From positions 1 through 32,945 of the forward strand of contig JAFPUE010000079.1 of the NCBI GenBank assembly GCA_017395555.1: DNA of 32,945 nucleotides, in the 5' to 3' direction. Positions 3,977 through 28,781 of the stretch are shown in pieces. Both the position numbers and the translations under genes were made by a program. Positions within the stretch are counted from its first letter, which is position 1, and the number at the start of each line of letters is the position of its first letter. The notes beneath the pieces are model-generated. The model was not told the DNA's origin. It searched no databases and saw only the letters and a list, made by a program, of their open reading frames with translations. The stretch is from Ruminiclostridium sp. GTDB lineage: Bacteria; Bacillota; Clostridia; Oscillospirales; Ruminococcaceae.

Positions 3977-4849
3977 TCAGTATTTTTTTTCAAGCTCCGC
4001 GGATTCCGCGTACATACGGGAATAGCTCTCGTATCGTGAAAGCGGTATCTTCCCCGCCGCAAGAGCCTCGGTTACGGCACAGCCGCTCTCTTTCAAATGT
4101 GCGCAGTCCGAAAATCTGCACTTTCCGAGAAACGGCTGAAATTCGCGGAAGCAGCCGTCAAGCTCCGCCTTCGGGATCCTGCCGTACCGTTCGATATCGA
4201 CGGTGGAAAATCCCGGGGTGTCAGCGATATATCCGCCTTCAAGCGGATACATACAAACCTCTCGCGTAGTATGTCTGCCGCGTCCGAGCTTTCTGCTTAT
4301 TTCAGCGGTCTCGCTGTTCAGCTCGGGGAAAATGCGGTTCATCAGACTCGATTTTCCGACACCGGAGTTGCCGATAAGCGCGGTTATCTTTCCTGCGGCA
4401 TAAGAACGGATATCTTCCGCTCCCGTATCAAGCCCGGTCATAAAGCACCTATACCCCGCGCGTTCATAAACGCCGGCTATATCGTCGCCCGCGAGCTTGT
4501 CATTTTTTGTGAATATCAGAGCGGTCTCAATGCCCTTGCTCTCGAATATCGCTATCAGCTTGTCGATAACGAACGCGTTCGGTGCCGGCTCGCACGACGA
4601 AACGACGAGAAGCACCATATCGAGATTTGCCAGCGGCGGACGGATAAGGAAGTTCTTTCTCTCCGCTATCTCGTCTATTACCGGCTCCGCGTTATCCTCG
4701 CAGACCACCGTTACATTATCGCCCGCCGAGGGCGACAGTGAGCGGTTCCGGAATATACCTCTCGCTCTGCACGCAAGAACACCGTCTTTTGTTTCGGTAT
4801 AGTATATCCCGCCGACTGCCCTTATTATTTTACCTTCTGTCCTGTTCAT
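3977..4849 (-). CDS. rsgA: Ribosome small-subunit-dependent GTPase RsgA
   Basis: 290 residues, typical of the family. It is a circularly permuted GTPase acting late in 30S subunit maturation. An N-terminal OB-fold region (about 1-70) is followed by the permuted G-motifs: G4 (TKND, about residue 114), G1 P-loop (GNSGVGKSS, about 160), and G3 (DTPG, about 212). The C-terminal zinc knuckle shows a C-x4-C-x-H-x5-C pattern (KCRFSDCAHLKESGC). Its ATG overlaps the prkC stop by one base (TGATG), so the two are translationally coupled; this neighbourhood is conserved in Firmicutes, where RsgA is a reported kinase substrate. The commonly following rpe and thiN genes are absent: a terminator follows instead. 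Confidence 0.96.
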   Translation of the reverse strand: MNRTEGKIIRAVGGIYYTETKDGVLACRARGIFRNRSLSPSAGDNVTVVCEDNAEPVIDEIAERKNFLIRPPLANLDMVLLVVSSCEPAPNAFVIDKLIAIFESKGIETALIFTKNDKLAGDDIAGVYERAGYRCFMTGLDTGAEDIRSYAAGKITALIGNSGVGKSSLMNRIFPELNSETAEISRKLGRGRHTTREVCMYPLEGGYIADTPGFSTVDIERYGRIPKAELDGCFREFQPFLGKCRFSDCAHLKESGCAVTEALAAGKIPLSRYESYSRMYAESAELEKKY

Positions 4850-7095
4850 CAGCCTTCGGCTACCACGCGGTTCTCGTCCTCTTCGGGTATTACAGGGATC
4901 TCCTCGTCTGCGGACGGGTTTTCTTCACCCTCCTCGCCGTTATCGCGGGACGATCTTCTTTCATCGCTGTCACCGGAGCTGCGTTCATCGGTGTTTTCTT
5001 CATCTGCCGGAACCGCGCTGAGAAGCTGTTTGAATACCTTCGGATTAAAGTTCTTGTCGTTCTCGCCGTAGTCCTTCGACGGAGGATCCTTCGTGAAGTC
5101 AACAAGGCAGTTGAAGAATGTTGCCTCTGCACCGGTATCTACGGATTTTACTCTTACGGCGTATTCATGCACTCCGCTGTTCGCGAACGGCCATTCGAAG
5201 CTGTCGATAAGGCTCAGGTTCTTGACCTCGGACATATTCTCCTGAAGAGTACCGTCGATATAATACTTGAACTCAAACTCGCCGGAAGCGGAGCCCTTGA
5301 TATTGATCTTTATTGAGGTCTCGCGCTCCTGCGCACCGCCGGAGCTTATAACTATCTCGACTATCGTGTTCTTCTCGACTATCGTTGTAGCGTCAATGTT
5401 CTGACGGATTACCTTGCCCTCTTCGACTTCGTTGCTCGGTTCGTAGAGCTCGGTTAGCAGGATATCATACTCCTGCGCACGGAGTCTCGCACTTGCGAGA
5501 GAAAGATTCACAAGCTGCGGAACAGCGGTAGTCTCGTCGCTCGCGCCCGTGCTGACCCAAAGGGTAACGGTAGTTCCTACCTGCACAAATTCACGCGGAG
5601 CGGGATTTGTCTTTATTACGCAGTCGGACTGTACGTTATCGTCCTCCTGTCTGATTATCTCGTATTTGAGATCCTGCTTTGAAAGCATGGTGATAACATC
5701 GTCTATCGGCTTTCCCGCATAGTCGTCGATCTCAACGAGCTTCGGTCCGTTGCTGACCGTGACCTCGACATTCTGATTTTTCTTTATCGTTCTGCCGGGC
5801 ATTACGCTCTGGTGCATAACGACGTTCTTTTCATACTTGGAGTCATATTTCAGAGTGGGAGTAAGGTTGAAATCGCCGTATTCATTCAGCACCTCGTCCC
5901 ATGTCTTGTTCACGAGATTCGGCATTTTTACTTCTTCGCCCGCTTCGCTCACGATTCCGCCTACCTCTGTGGTAACAACGGTGTAAATGAGCCACGCCGT
6001 CATTATAACGAATGCCGTAGCAAGCGCGAAAAGGATAGGAAGAACAGGCGAACGTCTTCTGCGCTCGTAATAGAACTCGTCGTCAAAATACTCCTCATCG
6101 TCCTCCGGCTCGTCGTCATCGTAGCTGTTATCCTCTTCCCCGCCTTCCTCAAACGAACGCTTCTTTATCTTGTGAGTCTGCTGTTCCTTTAAGGTCTCGG
6201 GAGTTATCTTGTCAAAATACTTGGTAGAGCCGTCAGTCGAGAAATACTTGTACTCGAAAACGATGCTCGGGTTCTTCTTGAATTCCTCGATATCCTTTAT
6301 CATTTCGCCGGCGGTCTGGTAACGCTCGGCAGGCACCTTCTGCATTGCCTTCATCGTTATCTCTTCCAGGCCTTCGGGAATAGAGCTGTTTATCTCGGTC
6401 ATCTTCCTCGGCTTGGTCTGCATATGCTTGAGCGCAATGGAAACGGGGTTGTCGCCGTCGAACGGCTTAACGCCCGTAAGCATCTCATACAGCATTACGC
6501 CGACGGAATAAATATCGCTCTTCTCGTCGGTGACCTCACCTCTTGCCTGCTCGGGGCTGATATAATGCACGGAGCCTATCGCTTTTTCGGATATCGTCTT
6601 GTCGGTCTCGCGGTTGAAGTGCGCGATACCGAAATCCATGACCTTTATAGTGCCGTCCGCAAGCAGCATTACATTCTGCGATTTGATATCGCGGTGTACT
6701 ATTCCTCTGTCATGCGCGTGCTGCAAAGCACGGAGTATCTGCGTTGTGAAATGCACAGCGTCACGCCATTTCAGAACGCCCTGTCTCTCGATATACTCTG
6801 TAAGTGTGATACCGTCTATATATTCCATTACGATGTACTGGATCTTGTCCGTAAAGCCTACATCGTAAATTTTTACTATATTTTTATGTGAAAGAAGCGC
6901 GATAGCTTTTGATTCGTTGCGGAAACGTCGAAGAAAATCCTCGCTCTTGGCAAACTCGTTTTTAAGTATCTTAACGGCAACGACTTTATTCTCTATTATA
7001 TCGTTCGCCTTGTAGATATCAGCCATTCCGCCGACGCCGATAAGCTCCGTGAGCTCATATCGGTTATCGAGCTTCTTGCCTATGTTTTTATCCAT
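4849..7095 (-). CDS. prkC: PASTA-domain Ser/Thr protein kinase (PrkC/StkP/IreK family)
   Basis: 748 residues. The kinase domain spans about 13-275, with glycine loop GVGGMADIY, ATP-binding K42, E61, catalytic D136 in HRDIKSQN, N141 and D154 of DFG; the activation loop ends in a typical GSVHYISPEQ. A long acidic juxtamembrane stretch (about 316-344) and RRRR precede one transmembrane helix (about 350-372). Outside the cell there are three PASTA repeats (about 385-590), then an Ig-like beta-rich segment and an acidic Ser/Glu/Asp-rich tail. PASTA repeats sense muropeptides or lipid II, and the kinase controls growth, wall synthesis and dormancy exit in relatives. It follows prpC by 66 bases. AAAGGA lies about 11 bases before the start. 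The acidic tail after the PASTA region is not a usual part of the family. Confidence 0.96.
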   Translation of the reverse strand: MDKNIGKKLDNRYELTELIGVGGMADIYKANDIIENKVVAVKILKNEFAKSEDFLRRFRNESKAIALLSHKNIVKIYDVGFTDKIQYIVMEYIDGITLTEYIERQGVLKWRDAVHFTTQILRALQHAHDRGIVHRDIKSQNVMLLADGTIKVMDFGIAHFNRETDKTISEKAIGSVHYISPEQARGEVTDEKSDIYSVGVMLYEMLTGVKPFDGDNPVSIALKHMQTKPRKMTEINSSIPEGLEEITMKAMQKVPAERYQTAGEMIKDIEEFKKNPSIVFEYKYFSTDGSTKYFDKITPETLKEQQTHKIKKRSFEEGGEEDNSYDDDEPEDDEEYFDDEFYYERRRRSPVLPILFALATAFVIMTAWLIYTVVTTEVGGIVSEAGEEVKMPNLVNKTWDEVLNEYGDFNLTPTLKYDSKYEKNVVMHQSVMPGRTIKKNQNVEVTVSNGPKLVEIDDYAGKPIDDVITMLSKQDLKYEIIRQEDDNVQSDCVIKTNPAPREFVQVGTTVTLWVSTGASDETTAVPQLVNLSLASARLRAQEYDILLTELYEPSNEVEEGKVIRQNIDATTIVEKNTIVEIVISSGGAQERETSIKINIKGSASGEFEFKYYIDGTLQENMSEVKNLSLIDSFEWPFANSGVHEYAVRVKSVDTGAEATFFNCLVDFTKDPPSKDYGENDKNFNPKVFKQLLSAVPADEENTDERSSGDSDERRSSRDNGEEGEENPSADEEIPVIPEEDENRVVAEG

Positions 7096-7161
7096 TCAGC
7101 TCAGTTCCTTTCATACACAGGACTTCATATATATGATCGCCTTACGGCGTTTACAGCTTGT

Positions 7162-7890
7162 TCAGACCTCTACTACCGCTACCGAAACATTGTCGCGTCC
7201 GCCGTTGCCGAGCGCGTAATCTATAAGCAGATCACATGACTTCGATATCGGATTGTTCACGATTATCTCCGCGATCTCGGCATCGTCGCCGTATGCGTGC
7301 AGTCCGTCCGACGAGAACAGCAGGATATTTCCTTCCTCAAGATCGATCTCGAAATAATCCGGCGTGATATTCCGGTCCGCACCGACAGCGCGTGTTATGC
7401 GGTTTCTGTCGGGGTGTACCTTGCTTTCCTCCTCGGTTATCTCTCCGCGCTCAACGAGCTTTCTGACATAAGTATGATCCTTTGTTATCTGCTGTATGCT
7501 GTCGTCAAAGATATGGTACGCTCTGCTGTCGCCCACGTTGATTATGTAGGCTCGTCCGGCGTAGATTATTCCCGCCACGCAGGTAGTTCCCATTCCGTAC
7601 TTATCCGACTCTCTCGAAGCGCGGTCAAATACAAGGCTGTTTGCTGCGGTAACGGAGGTTATAAGGAGATTGCGTATGAAATTGCGGTTGATATTTCCGC
7701 GGAACCCTTTTCTGATACGATCGGACATAAACTCAACAGTCATTTCGCTCGCAACGCTTCCCGCGTTCTCTCCGCCCATTCCGTCACAGAGAATTACCGC
7801 GACAGCGTCGTCTTCAAGCATATCCGTCCAAACTCTGTCCTGATTTTCATTGCGTTTCAGACCTATATCGGTCTTGGAAAAGCATTTCAT
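7162..7890 (-). CDS. prpC: PP2C-family Ser/Thr phosphatase (PrpC/Stp)
   Basis: 242 residues, full length for bacterial stand-alone PP2C enzymes. Metal-binding and catalytic motifs appear in order: the start K-T-D-I-G-x-K-R-x-N-E-D-like stretch (here NENQD), CDGMGG (about 37), GDSRAY (about 122), DHTYV, SSDGLHAY (about 194) and GGRDNVS near the end. It should remove phosphates placed by PrkC, including on PrkC itself. AGAGGGG sits 5 bases before the ATG. It is the first gene after an internal promoter within the long minus-strand cluster, so the kinase/phosphatase pair can be expressed apart from the upstream housekeeping genes. Confidence 0.95.
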   Translation of the reverse strand: MKCFSKTDIGLKRNENQDRVWTDMLEDDAVAVILCDGMGGENAGSVASEMTVEFMSDRIRKGFRGNINRNFIRNLLITSVTAANSLVFDRASRESDKYGMGTTCVAGIIYAGRAYIINVGDSRAYHIFDDSIQQITKDHTYVRKLVERGEITEEESKVHPDRNRITRAVGADRNITPDYFEIDLEEGNILLFSSDGLHAYGDDAEIAEIIVNNPISKSCDLLIDYALGNGGRDNVSVAVVEV

Positions 7891-26575: not shown

Positions 26576-26617
26576 TTCGACATTCTTATTGCAAATTGAC
26601 CGATTTTGTGGTATAAT
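26576..26617 (+). promoter_or_regulatory. Strong sigma-A promoter with adjacent 0A box, driving the low-complexity/GT-like pair
   Basis: -35 TTGCAA (26589-26594), 17-base spacer, perfect -10 TATAAT (26612-26617) with an extended TGG before it. A perfect TTCGACA (26576-26582) in a T-rich context lies 6 bases upstream of the -35 box and matches the Spo0A box in reverse orientation. Its position could support activation or repression. Confidence 0.65.
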
Positions 26618-26626
26618 TTATAAATA

Positions 26627-26682
26627 ATATTATGCCTAAATGTGTCTTTCTTCGGTCAAATTGCCAATAATAGGCATAATAT
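26627..26682 (+). promoter_or_regulatory. 5' leader hairpin before the low-complexity protein gene
   Basis: A perfect 12-bp inverted repeat (ATATTATGCCTA at 26627-26638, complement at 26671-26682) with a 32-base loop begins a few bases after the expected transcription start. It holds two in-frame ATG codons (26642 and 26681), neither with a good ribosome binding site. It may stabilise the mRNA or regulate translation. Confidence 0.6.
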
Positions 26683-26716
26683 GTCGTACATTTGTGTAAA
26701 GCGAGGTGAATATCCG

Positions 26717-27652
26717 GTGAGGAACTGCGACTGGTATCTTTGGCTGAACGGCAAAAAAGTCCGCAATATCAGAGAGCTTCGCGAAAACTTCGACACTGCG
26801 GTGCTTATCGGATATTTTCTCGGCGGAAGCCTGTTGAAATGGCTTTCCGATATAGGTGAATTCAGCATCGTTGAACGCCTGAACAAAACCGACAGAAACG
26901 GCGACATTGGCTCGCAGCTGAAATACGCGTTCGGTGTAAATCCCGATGAGAACGCCGTTTATGACAGAACAGCGGAGTACGCGAGCGCTGAGGTATCCGT
27001 TCCTGCGGAGACAGCGGCAGATGCGGGAATGTCCGAAGTCGGTATCTGTACCGGGTCTTTCTACGGAAACATCGGCTCGTTCTACGGAGATATCTGTTCG
27101 TTCACAAATACGTTCCTGTTCTCGCCTTCCGTAACCGGCTCATTCGGAACAGTAAGCTCCTTCTACGGCGCGGTTGAGACAACAGGTGCAGGTGTAGGCT
27201 CAGGCTACGGTTCCGGCATTTTAGCGAGCTCTTATGCGGCGCTTGTCTCCGGACAGGCACTCAATGTATCTTCATACGGCGGCGGCTCCGGTTTTTACTT
27301 CCGGGCGGGTCTTGCCGGATTCGGAGCAGGAGCGGGTTCGTTCTCATACTACGTCGGCTCCTACAAGATAAGCAGCTTCAATACGCTTTTCGGAAATCTC
27401 GGTAAATACGGCTCGTACAAGGGCTTCTATGCCGGCTCATTCGGACTTTCGATGCTGTCGGGTCTCATACCCGACTCCGGTATCTCCGGCTCGGGCGGCA
27501 GCTTCGGGCATATCGGCGGATTTTTCGGCGAGGGCAGCTTTTACAGAAGCGCAGACGGTGTCGTTATCACAGCCGAGGAATACCACAGAACGCTGATCAA
27601 CCTTTCATCATGCCCGCTCAACGCCTACGGATACGGTATCAATCTGATATGA
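26717..27652 (+). CDS. Unrecognised Gly/Ser/aromatic low-complexity protein
   Basis: About 311 residues. I recognise no family. The N-terminal 60 residues look folded and helical (WYLWLNGKKVRNIRELRENFD... YFLGG.LLKWL), followed by an acidic/Ala-rich stretch. From about 112 to 285 the protein is dominated by Gly, Ser, Tyr and Phe, with 14 [G/S/C]-S-[F/Y] tripeptides such as GSFYG and SSYGG. It ends in a more ordinary segment (VVITAEEYHRT...NAYGYGINLI). No signal peptide or membrane helix is evident. I choose the GTG at 26717, 8 bases after GAGGTG; upstream ATGs at 26642 and 26681 sit in a leader hairpin. It overlaps the next gene by 4 bases (ATGA). An assembly-forming or surface/spore-associated role is only a guess from composition. 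Confidence 0.7.
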   Translation: MRNCDWYLWLNGKKVRNIRELRENFDTAVLIGYFLGGSLLKWLSDIGEFSIVERLNKTDRNGDIGSQLKYAFGVNPDENAVYDRTAEYASAEVSVPAETAADAGMSEVGICTGSFYGNIGSFYGDICSFTNTFLFSPSVTGSFGTVSSFYGAVETTGAGVGSGYGSGILASSYAALVSGQALNVSSYGGGSGFYFRAGLAGFGAGAGSFSYYVGSYKISSFNTLFGNLGKYGSYKGFYAGSFGLSMLSGLIPDSGISGSGGSFGHIGGFFGEGSFYRSADGVVITAEEYHRTLINLSSCPLNAYGYGINLI

Positions 27653-28485
27653 ACGGGATACATGTAAACTCATCCGCACCGTTTTTCGCACGCAGGACCG
27701 GTGCGGAATTTTCGATAGAGAAGTTCAGCCTTTACTGTGAAGTGATCTCCGCTTTGCAGTGGCGGAAAATGAACGGCGACATATTCATGATAACGGACAG
27801 GACGGCAGGTGCCTTTTACCGGAAATGCGGCATCGAAAAGGTCTGGAACGGTATCAGCGAGAGCATACCTCAGGATATTGAGGGCATTGACCCGCTGATG
27901 TTCTGGGCTGCGGGCAAGCTGATAGCTCTGCGGGATATACCGGATAACGCCGCGCTTGTTGACGAGGATCTTGTGATCTGGAAAACTCTTGCTCTGTCGG
28001 ATACGGCAGTTACCGTAGCACACCGCGAGTACCTCTCCCCCGAGATCTACCCCGATCCGTCTCTTTTCGGAGTCAGCGGTTTTCCGCTTCTTGACCGGCT
28101 TGACAAGTCTGTGCTTCCCTGCAACACCGCTTTTTTGTATATACCGGACGCTTCTTTCCGTGTTTTCTACGCGAGTCAGGCGATAGCGTTCATGAAGGCT
28201 ACTTCTATGAACAAGTGTGATGACAGGCTTTGCAGAATGGTCTTCGCGGAGCAGAGACTTCTCGCTATGCTGTGCGGGCTTACAGACACTCCGATAGAAA
28301 CCCTTATGGATATGAACAGGCTTTTTGTGGCGCAGGACGACTACACTCACCTGTGGGGAGCGAAGCAGGCTATGCGCGACAACGAGGATTACCGGAACGG
28401 CTTTGTCGAAAGGTGCAGGAACCGCATACGCACCGACTTTCCCGAGTACACTTATGTTATAGAAGCGATAGATGCTTTGGAATGA
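27649..28485 (+). CDS. Glycosyltransferase-like protein (resembles DUF6734)
   Basis: 278 residues. The layout recalls the DUF6734 group: a short opening strand with HVNSSAPFFARR, then a region FMITDRTAGAFYRKCGI (the strand-turn where these proteins read a nucleotide-sugar-like pocket), then W-A-A-G-K-L-x-A followed by VDEDLVIWKTL, where D105-E106-D107 takes the place of the GT-A D-x-D metal motif. This is assigned from memory of the pattern; a search is needed to settle it. It is translationally coupled to the low-complexity gene by an ATGA overlap and has no visible ribosome binding site of its own, suggesting that the two products are made in fixed proportion and may act together. Confidence 0.55.
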   Translation: MNGIHVNSSAPFFARRTGAEFSIEKFSLYCEVISALQWRKMNGDIFMITDRTAGAFYRKCGIEKVWNGISESIPQDIEGIDPLMFWAAGKLIALRDIPDNAALVDEDLVIWKTLALSDTAVTVAHREYLSPEIYPDPSLFGVSGFPLLDRLDKSVLPCNTAFLYIPDASFRVFYASQAIAFMKATSMNKCDDRLCRMVFAEQRLLAMLCGLTDTPIETLMDMNRLFVAQDDYTHLWGAKQAMRDNEDYRNGFVERCRNRIRTDFPEYTYVIEAIDALE

Positions 28486-28488
28486 CAA

Positions 28489-28518
28489 AAAGCCCATGGA
28501 GACAGCTCCACGGGCTTT
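28489..28518. terminator. Bidirectional terminator between the GT-like gene and ireB
   Basis: A 13-bp stem with one imperfect pair (AAAGCCCATGGAG, 28489-28501; partner 28506-28518) and a 4-base loop. On the minus strand the imperfect pair becomes G-U and a TTTTT follows, so it is strong for ireB; on the plus strand it has a weaker T-rich tail. Confidence 0.85.
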
Positions 28519-28535: not shown

Positions 28536-28781
28536 TTATTCGCCGAGGTAATTCTTTACAAGTGCCTGAAGCAGCTCGTCACGGTCAATGCGTCTGATAA
28601 GGCTTCTTGCGTTGTTATATGTCGTTATGTATGTCGGATCCTCGGAGAGTATGTATCCGACAAGCTGGTTGATGGGATTATAGCCTTTTTCGTTGAGAGC
28701 CTGATATACCGTAGTAAGGATCTCTTTCATTTCATGATCGCGCTCGTCCTTAACGGAGAACGTCATTGTCTTATCCTGCAT
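28536..28781 (-). CDS. ireB: IreB family regulatory phosphoprotein (UPF0297)
   Basis: 81 residues. T-M-T-F-S near the start is the phosphorylated Thr region of Enterococcus IreB, and [33 protein letters not shown]...[14 protein letters not shown] is the highly conserved body. IreB is a substrate of the PASTA kinase IreK and dampens cephalosporin resistance in Enterococcus, so it probably links to the PrkC/PrpC pair in this window. AAGGAAGG precedes the ATG at 28781. In most Firmicutes it is next to yqgF/yrrK and yrzB; here it stands alone behind its own promoter. Confidence 0.95.

Follow-up and report, generated by a model that had tools for sequence, protein, structure and literature searches.

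Dedicated glycosyltransferases that act on repeat proteins or peptides are already known. Spore glycoproteins of the BclA type comprise a low-complexity protein encoded beside a glycosyltransferase gene. In glycocins, which are glycosylated ribosomally synthesized and post-translationally modified peptides (RiPPs), a ribosomal substrate shares one cluster with its own glycosyltransferase, and in serine-rich repeat adhesins Ser-rich repeats are served by the dedicated glycosyltransferases GtfA/GtfB. Here, we analyze a two-gene locus on a 32,945-nucleotide stretch of DNA from Ruminiclostridium sp., a rumen-type bacterium (contig JAFPUE010000079.1), hereafter the window. Gene 1 encodes a Ser-aromatic repeat protein, and gene 2 encodes a DUF6734-like probable glycosyltransferase. 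The locus resembles BclA-type loci in that a low-complexity protein adjoins a probable glycosyltransferase gene; however, no collagen-like repeat was noticed in the listed partner sequences (gene 1-type proteins encoded upstream of gene 2 homologues), and a link to sporulation is unsupported. In contrast to glycocins, the recognition-like conserved part lies at the C-terminus, many substrates would have the size of proteins, and neither an exporter nor a protease gene was observed repeatedly across lineages among the 45 largest neighbor clusters, which were judged by their first residues and annotated in part. Unlike serine-rich repeat adhesins, the partners lack a membrane-like stretch (0/30) and no recurring secretion gene was seen. 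If the mechanism proposed below is correct, what is new is the uncharacterized enzyme family and the C-terminal mode of recognition.

The two genes are coupled across genomes. Among 60 relatives, the window's own genome included, gene 1 is matched in 30 and gene 2 in 35, and all 30 lie within the 35; 34 of the 35 gene 2 relatives belong to the genus label of the window (g1). In the five relatives with gene 2 only (G006, G010, G016, G021, and G047), the partner upstream is diverged or cut. The original prediction had named a low-complexity gene that is widespread without its neighbor as evidence against the pairing; in our samples, every genome with gene 1 (30/30) also has gene 2. Order-wide, gene 2 is found in 46 of 394 genomes and 8 of 168 genera, under the family labels f1, f13, and f14, and phylum-wide in 3 of 398 genomes, one of them the window's own. 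The nine loci that come from named records are from metagenome-assembled genomes labeled Ruminiclostridium sp., uncultured Ruminococcus sp., or uncultured Clostridia bacterium. Of 73 gene 2 loci, 72 have an upstream open reading frame that ends in the pattern G-[YF]-G-[ILV]-x-[ILNR]-[IV]-stop. Because the script used to find partners demanded this tail, the result to weigh is the one locus that failed, L143 of genome G105. Not counted among the 73 are four further loci: L042 and L049 (which duplicate L078 and L076), L048 (cut by a contig end), and L041, whose listed partner likewise ends in the tail.

In the genomes examined, the tail itself is an almost constant companion of the enzyme. A strict form of the pattern was searched for in 80 genomes picked by gene 2 status, 46 with gene 2 and 34 without a gene 2 match. 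It occurs exactly once in 42 of the 46 genomes with the enzyme, each time closing the gene that directly precedes the enzyme, and in 0/34 of the genomes without it; the reversed pattern, used as a control, occurs in 0/80. The Fisher p values for tail versus enzyme (1.7e-18 overall and 1.2e-8 within f1) are only nominal because of relatedness among the genomes and because the pattern was drawn up once the partners had been seen; for the latter reason, it is the 0/34 and the single copy per genome that matter most. The strict pattern misses four genomes with the enzyme: G278 and G327 (tail GYGIHNI), G070 (tail GFGLELI), and G105 (partner not found). A phylum-wide search of 199 genomes matched the tail at 15 places in 14 genomes, compared with 1 for the reversed control. 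A tail that occurs without the enzyme was rejected for 14 of these places, which are frames of 12–44 residues or end in TGG, a codon that the pattern admitted and that is no stop; the window's own is the only partner C-terminus among the 15.

Partner and enzyme genes overlap or abut in 59 loci, are separated by 9–60 bases in 10, and lie 144, 682, and 1363 bases apart in the remaining 3. The explanation that the tail persists merely through its overlap with the start of gene 2 is ruled out, since the tail is retained in the 13 loci in which the enzyme begins 9–1363 bases downstream; the constraint therefore acts on the protein. In a distant genome (G792), a DUF6734 gene lies directly behind a 350-residue gene whose product ends in ...SGSGFGGYGLELIDAR, three residues beyond the tail.

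Upstream of the tail, the gene 1 product has a repeat core. Residues 101–300 contain 43 G, 34 S, 19 F, and 15 Y among 200 residues, and a recount of [G/S/C]-S-[F/Y] tripeptides in the 311-residue protein gives the same 14 as the original prediction. The broader tripeptide [GSTN]-S-[FYW] occurs 13 times in the 342-residue stop-to-stop frame of the window's partner, compared with a shuffle expectation of 2.5, and 721 times in 72 pooled partners, compared with approximately 100 expected by shuffling. Its count exceeds all 300 shuffles in 62 of the 72 partners. The value from this comparison is above 0.05 in five (L055, L056, L057, L129, and L134), the last of which comes from a contig end, where its frame has 46 residues. 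The distance from site to site differs between families: 5 is the commonest spacing in f1 partners (161/450), whereas f13 partners mostly have 4 (91/182) or 7 (36/182) and retain the tripeptide. Over 179 partner pairs at 50–93% identity, which are non-independent, the highest identity within the core belongs to the motif Ser, at 0.83 (970/1169), although repeat alignment tends to favor the motif. The corresponding values are 0.67 for its two neighbors, 0.62 for other core Gly, 0.53 for other core Ser, 0.48 for other core F/Y/W, and 0.35 for the remaining core residues; the last ten residues of the protein reach 0.86.

Outside the tail, the partner changes. Its N-terminus differs among lineages, and the core evolves fast. 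Of 73 partners tested, 39 have the N-terminal domain seen in the window; the f13 partners are without it, and the L059–L061 partners have a short N-terminus; a likeness of this domain to the N-terminus of the G792 partner was sought and not found (E 0.58). In agreement with the earlier statement that no family was recognized for gene 1, scans of its product against Pfam, NCBIfam, and PHROGs profiles give no match. By a crude measure, a 19-residue hydropathy mean above 1.6, no membrane stretch is present in any of 30 partners (0/30). Because of this and of the lack of a recurring export gene, the sequences lean toward a cytoplasmic gene 1 product. A separate feature of the core is an alternating Glu-aromatic stretch (e.g., YEYEYE), found with the pattern E[YWF]E[YWF] in 18 of 43 f1 partners (among them L050, L053, L064, L070, L073, and L074; the window protein is without it) and with the pattern [YWF]E[YWF]E[YWF] in 2 of 29 f13 partners (L136 and L141).

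The enzyme is DUF6734-like, and its relatives match that family (PF20508). The original prediction of DUF6734 likeness holds for the relatives, with PF20508 matched at E up to 0.1 by 37 of the 39 members of the subfamily and at E up to 10 by 37 of 37 in a wider set, but not at the family threshold for the window protein itself, which scores 19.3 bits (E 8e-4), below the Pfam cutoff of 27. L143 scores 53.9 bits, and distant members score 204–347 bits. NCBIfam and PHROGs scans of the gene 2 product give no match. The D-E-D reported at residues 105–107 is confirmed, with D105 and D107 invariant in 39 aligned relatives and the DxD aspartates likewise in alignments of 37 and 17 members. In the 17-member alignment of diverse sequences (A4), DxD, EQ, and H-x-x-G are invariant in all 17 and are common to the window's branch and to DUF6734. 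No paper found names DUF6734 or the string GYGLELI.

The same landmarks suggest a likeness to family GT8, which has a GT-A fold. HxxGxxK is given as a GT8 motif in two papers (PMC3522684, PMC5751367). The landmark order resembles that of GT8, DxD, N-A/S-G, [DE]Q, HxxGxxK; among the three distant members of A4, HxxGxxK is found in 3/3 (L149, L210, and L211) and NAG in 2/3. The Oscillospirales branch differs in having NTA in place of NAG and HxxGxK, one residue shorter than HxxGxxK. An hhalign comparison of A4 with GT8 aligns 95 columns at a score of 28.7 and brings DxD, NAG, and EQ into register; this score is reached by 0/100 column shuffles. When A4 is ranked over 21 families, 19 of them controls, GT8 is first and GT32 is second. 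Pfam GT8 has no match among the gene 2 family members scanned. The proposed GT-A-type enzyme is favored by the landmarks and the wide-profile test but not by the narrower profile tests given below, and the GT8 likeness is supported but not proven by the sequences.

We infer that the gene 2 product is probably a glycosyltransferase of the GT-A type (GT8-like) dedicated to one protein substrate, the gene 1 product, which would be docked by its tail and sugared on the serines of its core; we place the probability of this reading at about 0.58. The enzyme would recognize the C-terminal tail GYG[IL]x[LI][IV]-COOH and would transfer a sugar to serines of the [G/S/T]-S-[F/Y] or Gly-Ser core, and the lineage-specific N-terminal module would set the cellular role of each product, which may be that of a cytoplasmic assembly, an envelope component, or a peptide product. 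Docking on the tag and action on the Ser sites are suggested because the tag occurs once per genome, is found only with the enzyme in these samples, and stays constant while the protein changes.

Several observations weigh against this assignment. The wide profile A4 was a second attempt, made after the subfamily profile A3, whose score against GT8 is reached by 29/100 shuffles and against GT32 by 5/100; among 19 control families, 6 score above GT8 and 3 above GT32 with A3. With the three distant members alone, 17/100 shuffles reach the GT8 score and 67/100 the GT32 score. The hhalign probability of the A4–GT8 match is 8.4% (E 0.004, for that single comparison), and the GT8 and GT32 profiles are small (6 and 3 sequences), with the GT8 set drawn from relatives, only 2 of 6 of which carry all four landmarks in the patterns used here. 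A sequence comparison with solved structures (PDB) gave no convincing match. Genome G105 (L143) has the enzyme and no tailed partner that could be found, in 1 of 73 loci; its enzyme may have a different protein as its substrate, or the partner may have been lost. The tripeptides number only 2, 0, and 1 in the L055, L056, and L057 partners, and the G792 partner has no repeat core, so that Gly-Ser, or another element altogether, may serve as the acceptor. The tail could equally bind another protein instead.

O-linked N-acetylglucosamine (O-GlcNAc) is carried by FG-repeat nucleoporins. A bolder version of the tail-directed mechanism would extend this parallel to the present locus: the heptapeptide GYG[IL]x[LI][IV]-COOH would single out exactly one protein in each genome as the target of a DUF6734 glycosyltransferase, the Ser-aromatic core would be sugared as the nucleoporins are, and the modification would tune a self-assembling cytoplasmic protein. 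We regard this version as unlikely. Should tag-directed transfer be correct, the pair would represent a bacterial glycosyltransferase with a single substrate recognized via a C-terminal tag, DUF6734 would gain a function, and a family also present in a lanthipeptide-type cluster would be linked to ordinary protein decoration. The two genes would form a simple system for tag-directed protein glycosylation, and in the bolder version the tag would be a portable handle for directed O-glycosylation.

The same data can be explained in other ways. The gene 1 product could be a partner subunit or anchor, with the tail as the binding site, for an enzyme that acts on a different target, e.g., an envelope glycan or another protein. 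One-to-one co-occurrence suits such a complex as well as it suits an enzyme–substrate pair, and both the G105 enzyme for which no partner was found and the coreless G792 partner fit it. A pure scaffold, however, has no obvious need for Ser-aromatic sites that persist at changing spacing with the motif Ser best conserved, and we consider this explanation unlikely. A RiPP-like pathway, in which gene 1 encodes a precursor with leader, core, and follower and the glycosylated core is excised and released as a peptide, is favored by the precursor-sized L059 and L060 partners (84 and 119 residues when counted from their first start) and by a DUF6734 gene on an Emticicia plasmid that lies amid genes for a lantibiotic dehydratase, a LanC-like protein, and a peptidase-domain ABC transporter. 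We judge it quite unlikely for the locus studied here: many listed partners have 200–340 residues, no recurrence of an exporter or protease was observed among the 45 largest neighbor clusters, and no lanthipeptide gene is annotated within 4 kb of the Hymenobacter DUF6734 gene.

The original prediction named a spore-surface role among its possibilities, and a gene 1 product that is a spore-coat or exosporium protein, decorated in the manner of BclA under Spo0A control, would agree with spoIIE upstream in the window and with the spore genes of the hosts. TTCGACA, which resembles the 0A-box consensus, is indeed present at 26576–26582. TTCGNCA occurs 33 times in the window, compared with 23.4 expected, and 7 of 100 shuffles reach 33. 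Upstream of the pair over all loci, 0A-like boxes are found in 11 of 68 cases versus 5.9 expected by mononucleotide shuffling, about a twofold excess in favor of this role. Yet none of the 11 close relatives listed has such a box within 250 bases upstream of the pair, and spoIIE is a neighbor in just 13 of 43 loci (duplicates counted) and adjoins the pair only in the closest lineage. Of 67 genomes, 64 have a Spo0A_C hit and 66 a SpoIVA hit, and both are present in 20/20 genomes without the pair. Spo0A_C hits are missing from the window's own genome, which is 87% complete, from G118, and from G792, which has the pair and lacks SpoIVA as well. Sporulation control is thus not supported by the box, spoIIE neighbor, and spore-gene data; the spore reading is without specific support in these sequences, and we give it a slim chance. 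The gene 1 product could also be a pentapeptide-type solenoid, with the enzyme as a mere operon neighbor. Pentapeptide_2 is matched by 6 of 30 partners (best 3.9e-9; the window protein is unmatched), and the modal spacing in f1 is 5. A purely structural pentapeptide repeat was rejected on the f13 spacing of mostly 4 and 7, with tripeptides and tail alike, and enzyme and tail occur together in 72 of 73 loci across differing neighborhoods, which leaves the solenoid explanation very improbable.

Distant DUF6734 genes were searched for in the 398 phylum and 394 order genomes above and, with single queries, in plasmid and phage records. Plasmids of Emticicia oligotrophica and Hymenobacter carry distant DUF6734 proteins. 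The Emticicia gene (L212, NC_018749.1 14000-38000) lies in a lanthipeptide-type region that, besides the genes mentioned above, contains short hypothetical proteins; members of DUF6734 may therefore tailor peptide natural products. In G727, from the same phylum sample, the DUF6734 gene L149 adjoins genes for an eCIS_core protein and a phage-tail-like protein. A viral origin was considered and rejected: a search of viral contigs yielded no confirmed relative of A1 among 46 candidate stretches and no stretch for L149, and one of phage records yielded no relative of L149 or P0002.

The features of the locus are collected in the table.

Table. Positions of the features of the two-gene locus in the window.
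Feature	Position	Strand	Remark
Gene 1, Ser-aromatic repeat protein with C-terminal tail, 311 aa	26717..27652	+	probable substrate
Gene 2, DUF6734-like, GT8-like probable glycosyltransferase, 278 aa	27649..28485	+	
N-terminal domain of gene 1 (WLNGKK..NFD..YFLGGSL..WLSD)	26717..26950	+	without Pfam or NCBIfam match
Repeat core of gene 1, 14 [G/S/C]-S-[F/Y] tripeptides	27050..27541	+	probable acceptor sites
C-terminal tail GYGINLI-COOH, conserved	27629..27649	+	probable enzyme docking site
D-x-D codons of gene 2 (D105-E106-D107)	27961..27969	+	both D invariant
H-x-x-G-x-K codons of gene 2 (H234-G237-K239)	28348..28365	+	possible counterpart of HxxGxxK in distant DUF6734 and GT8
Sigma-70-type promoter-like site, TTGCAA-17-TATAAT, TG before -10	26589..26617	+	
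Terminator-like hairpin	28489..28518	.	common to convergent ireB gene

The sequence features of the layout described earlier are confirmed. Gene 1 starts with GTG, preceded by GAGGTGA, and meets gene 2 in an ATGA overlap (27649–27652). The promoter-like site is found as claimed, and sites that resemble it can be read by eye 5′ of the pair in the close relatives listed. The terminator-like hairpin is also found, although it is shared with the convergent ireB gene and is the stronger on the minus strand (13 pairs). Between the promoter-like site and gene 1 lies a perfect 12-base inverted repeat (ATATTATGCCTA / TAGGCATAATAT, 32 bases apart; 26627–26682), which could be an operator. A structured 5′ leader was considered for this region and rejected as weak: folding of the leader with the inverted repeat is not clearly better than that of shuffles (z -0.83, -1.70, -1.56, and 0.28).

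Neighborhoods change among lineages. The ireB gene is next to the pair in 14 of the 43 loci, and other genes are found elsewhere. Enzyme and partner aside, each of the 45 largest neighbor clusters is confined to one of the two main families, with the exception of one 5-locus cluster. In the window, the gene for the IreB phosphoprotein (28536–28781) is located approximately 20 kb from genes for a PASTA serine/threonine kinase and a PP2C phosphatase (4849–7890).

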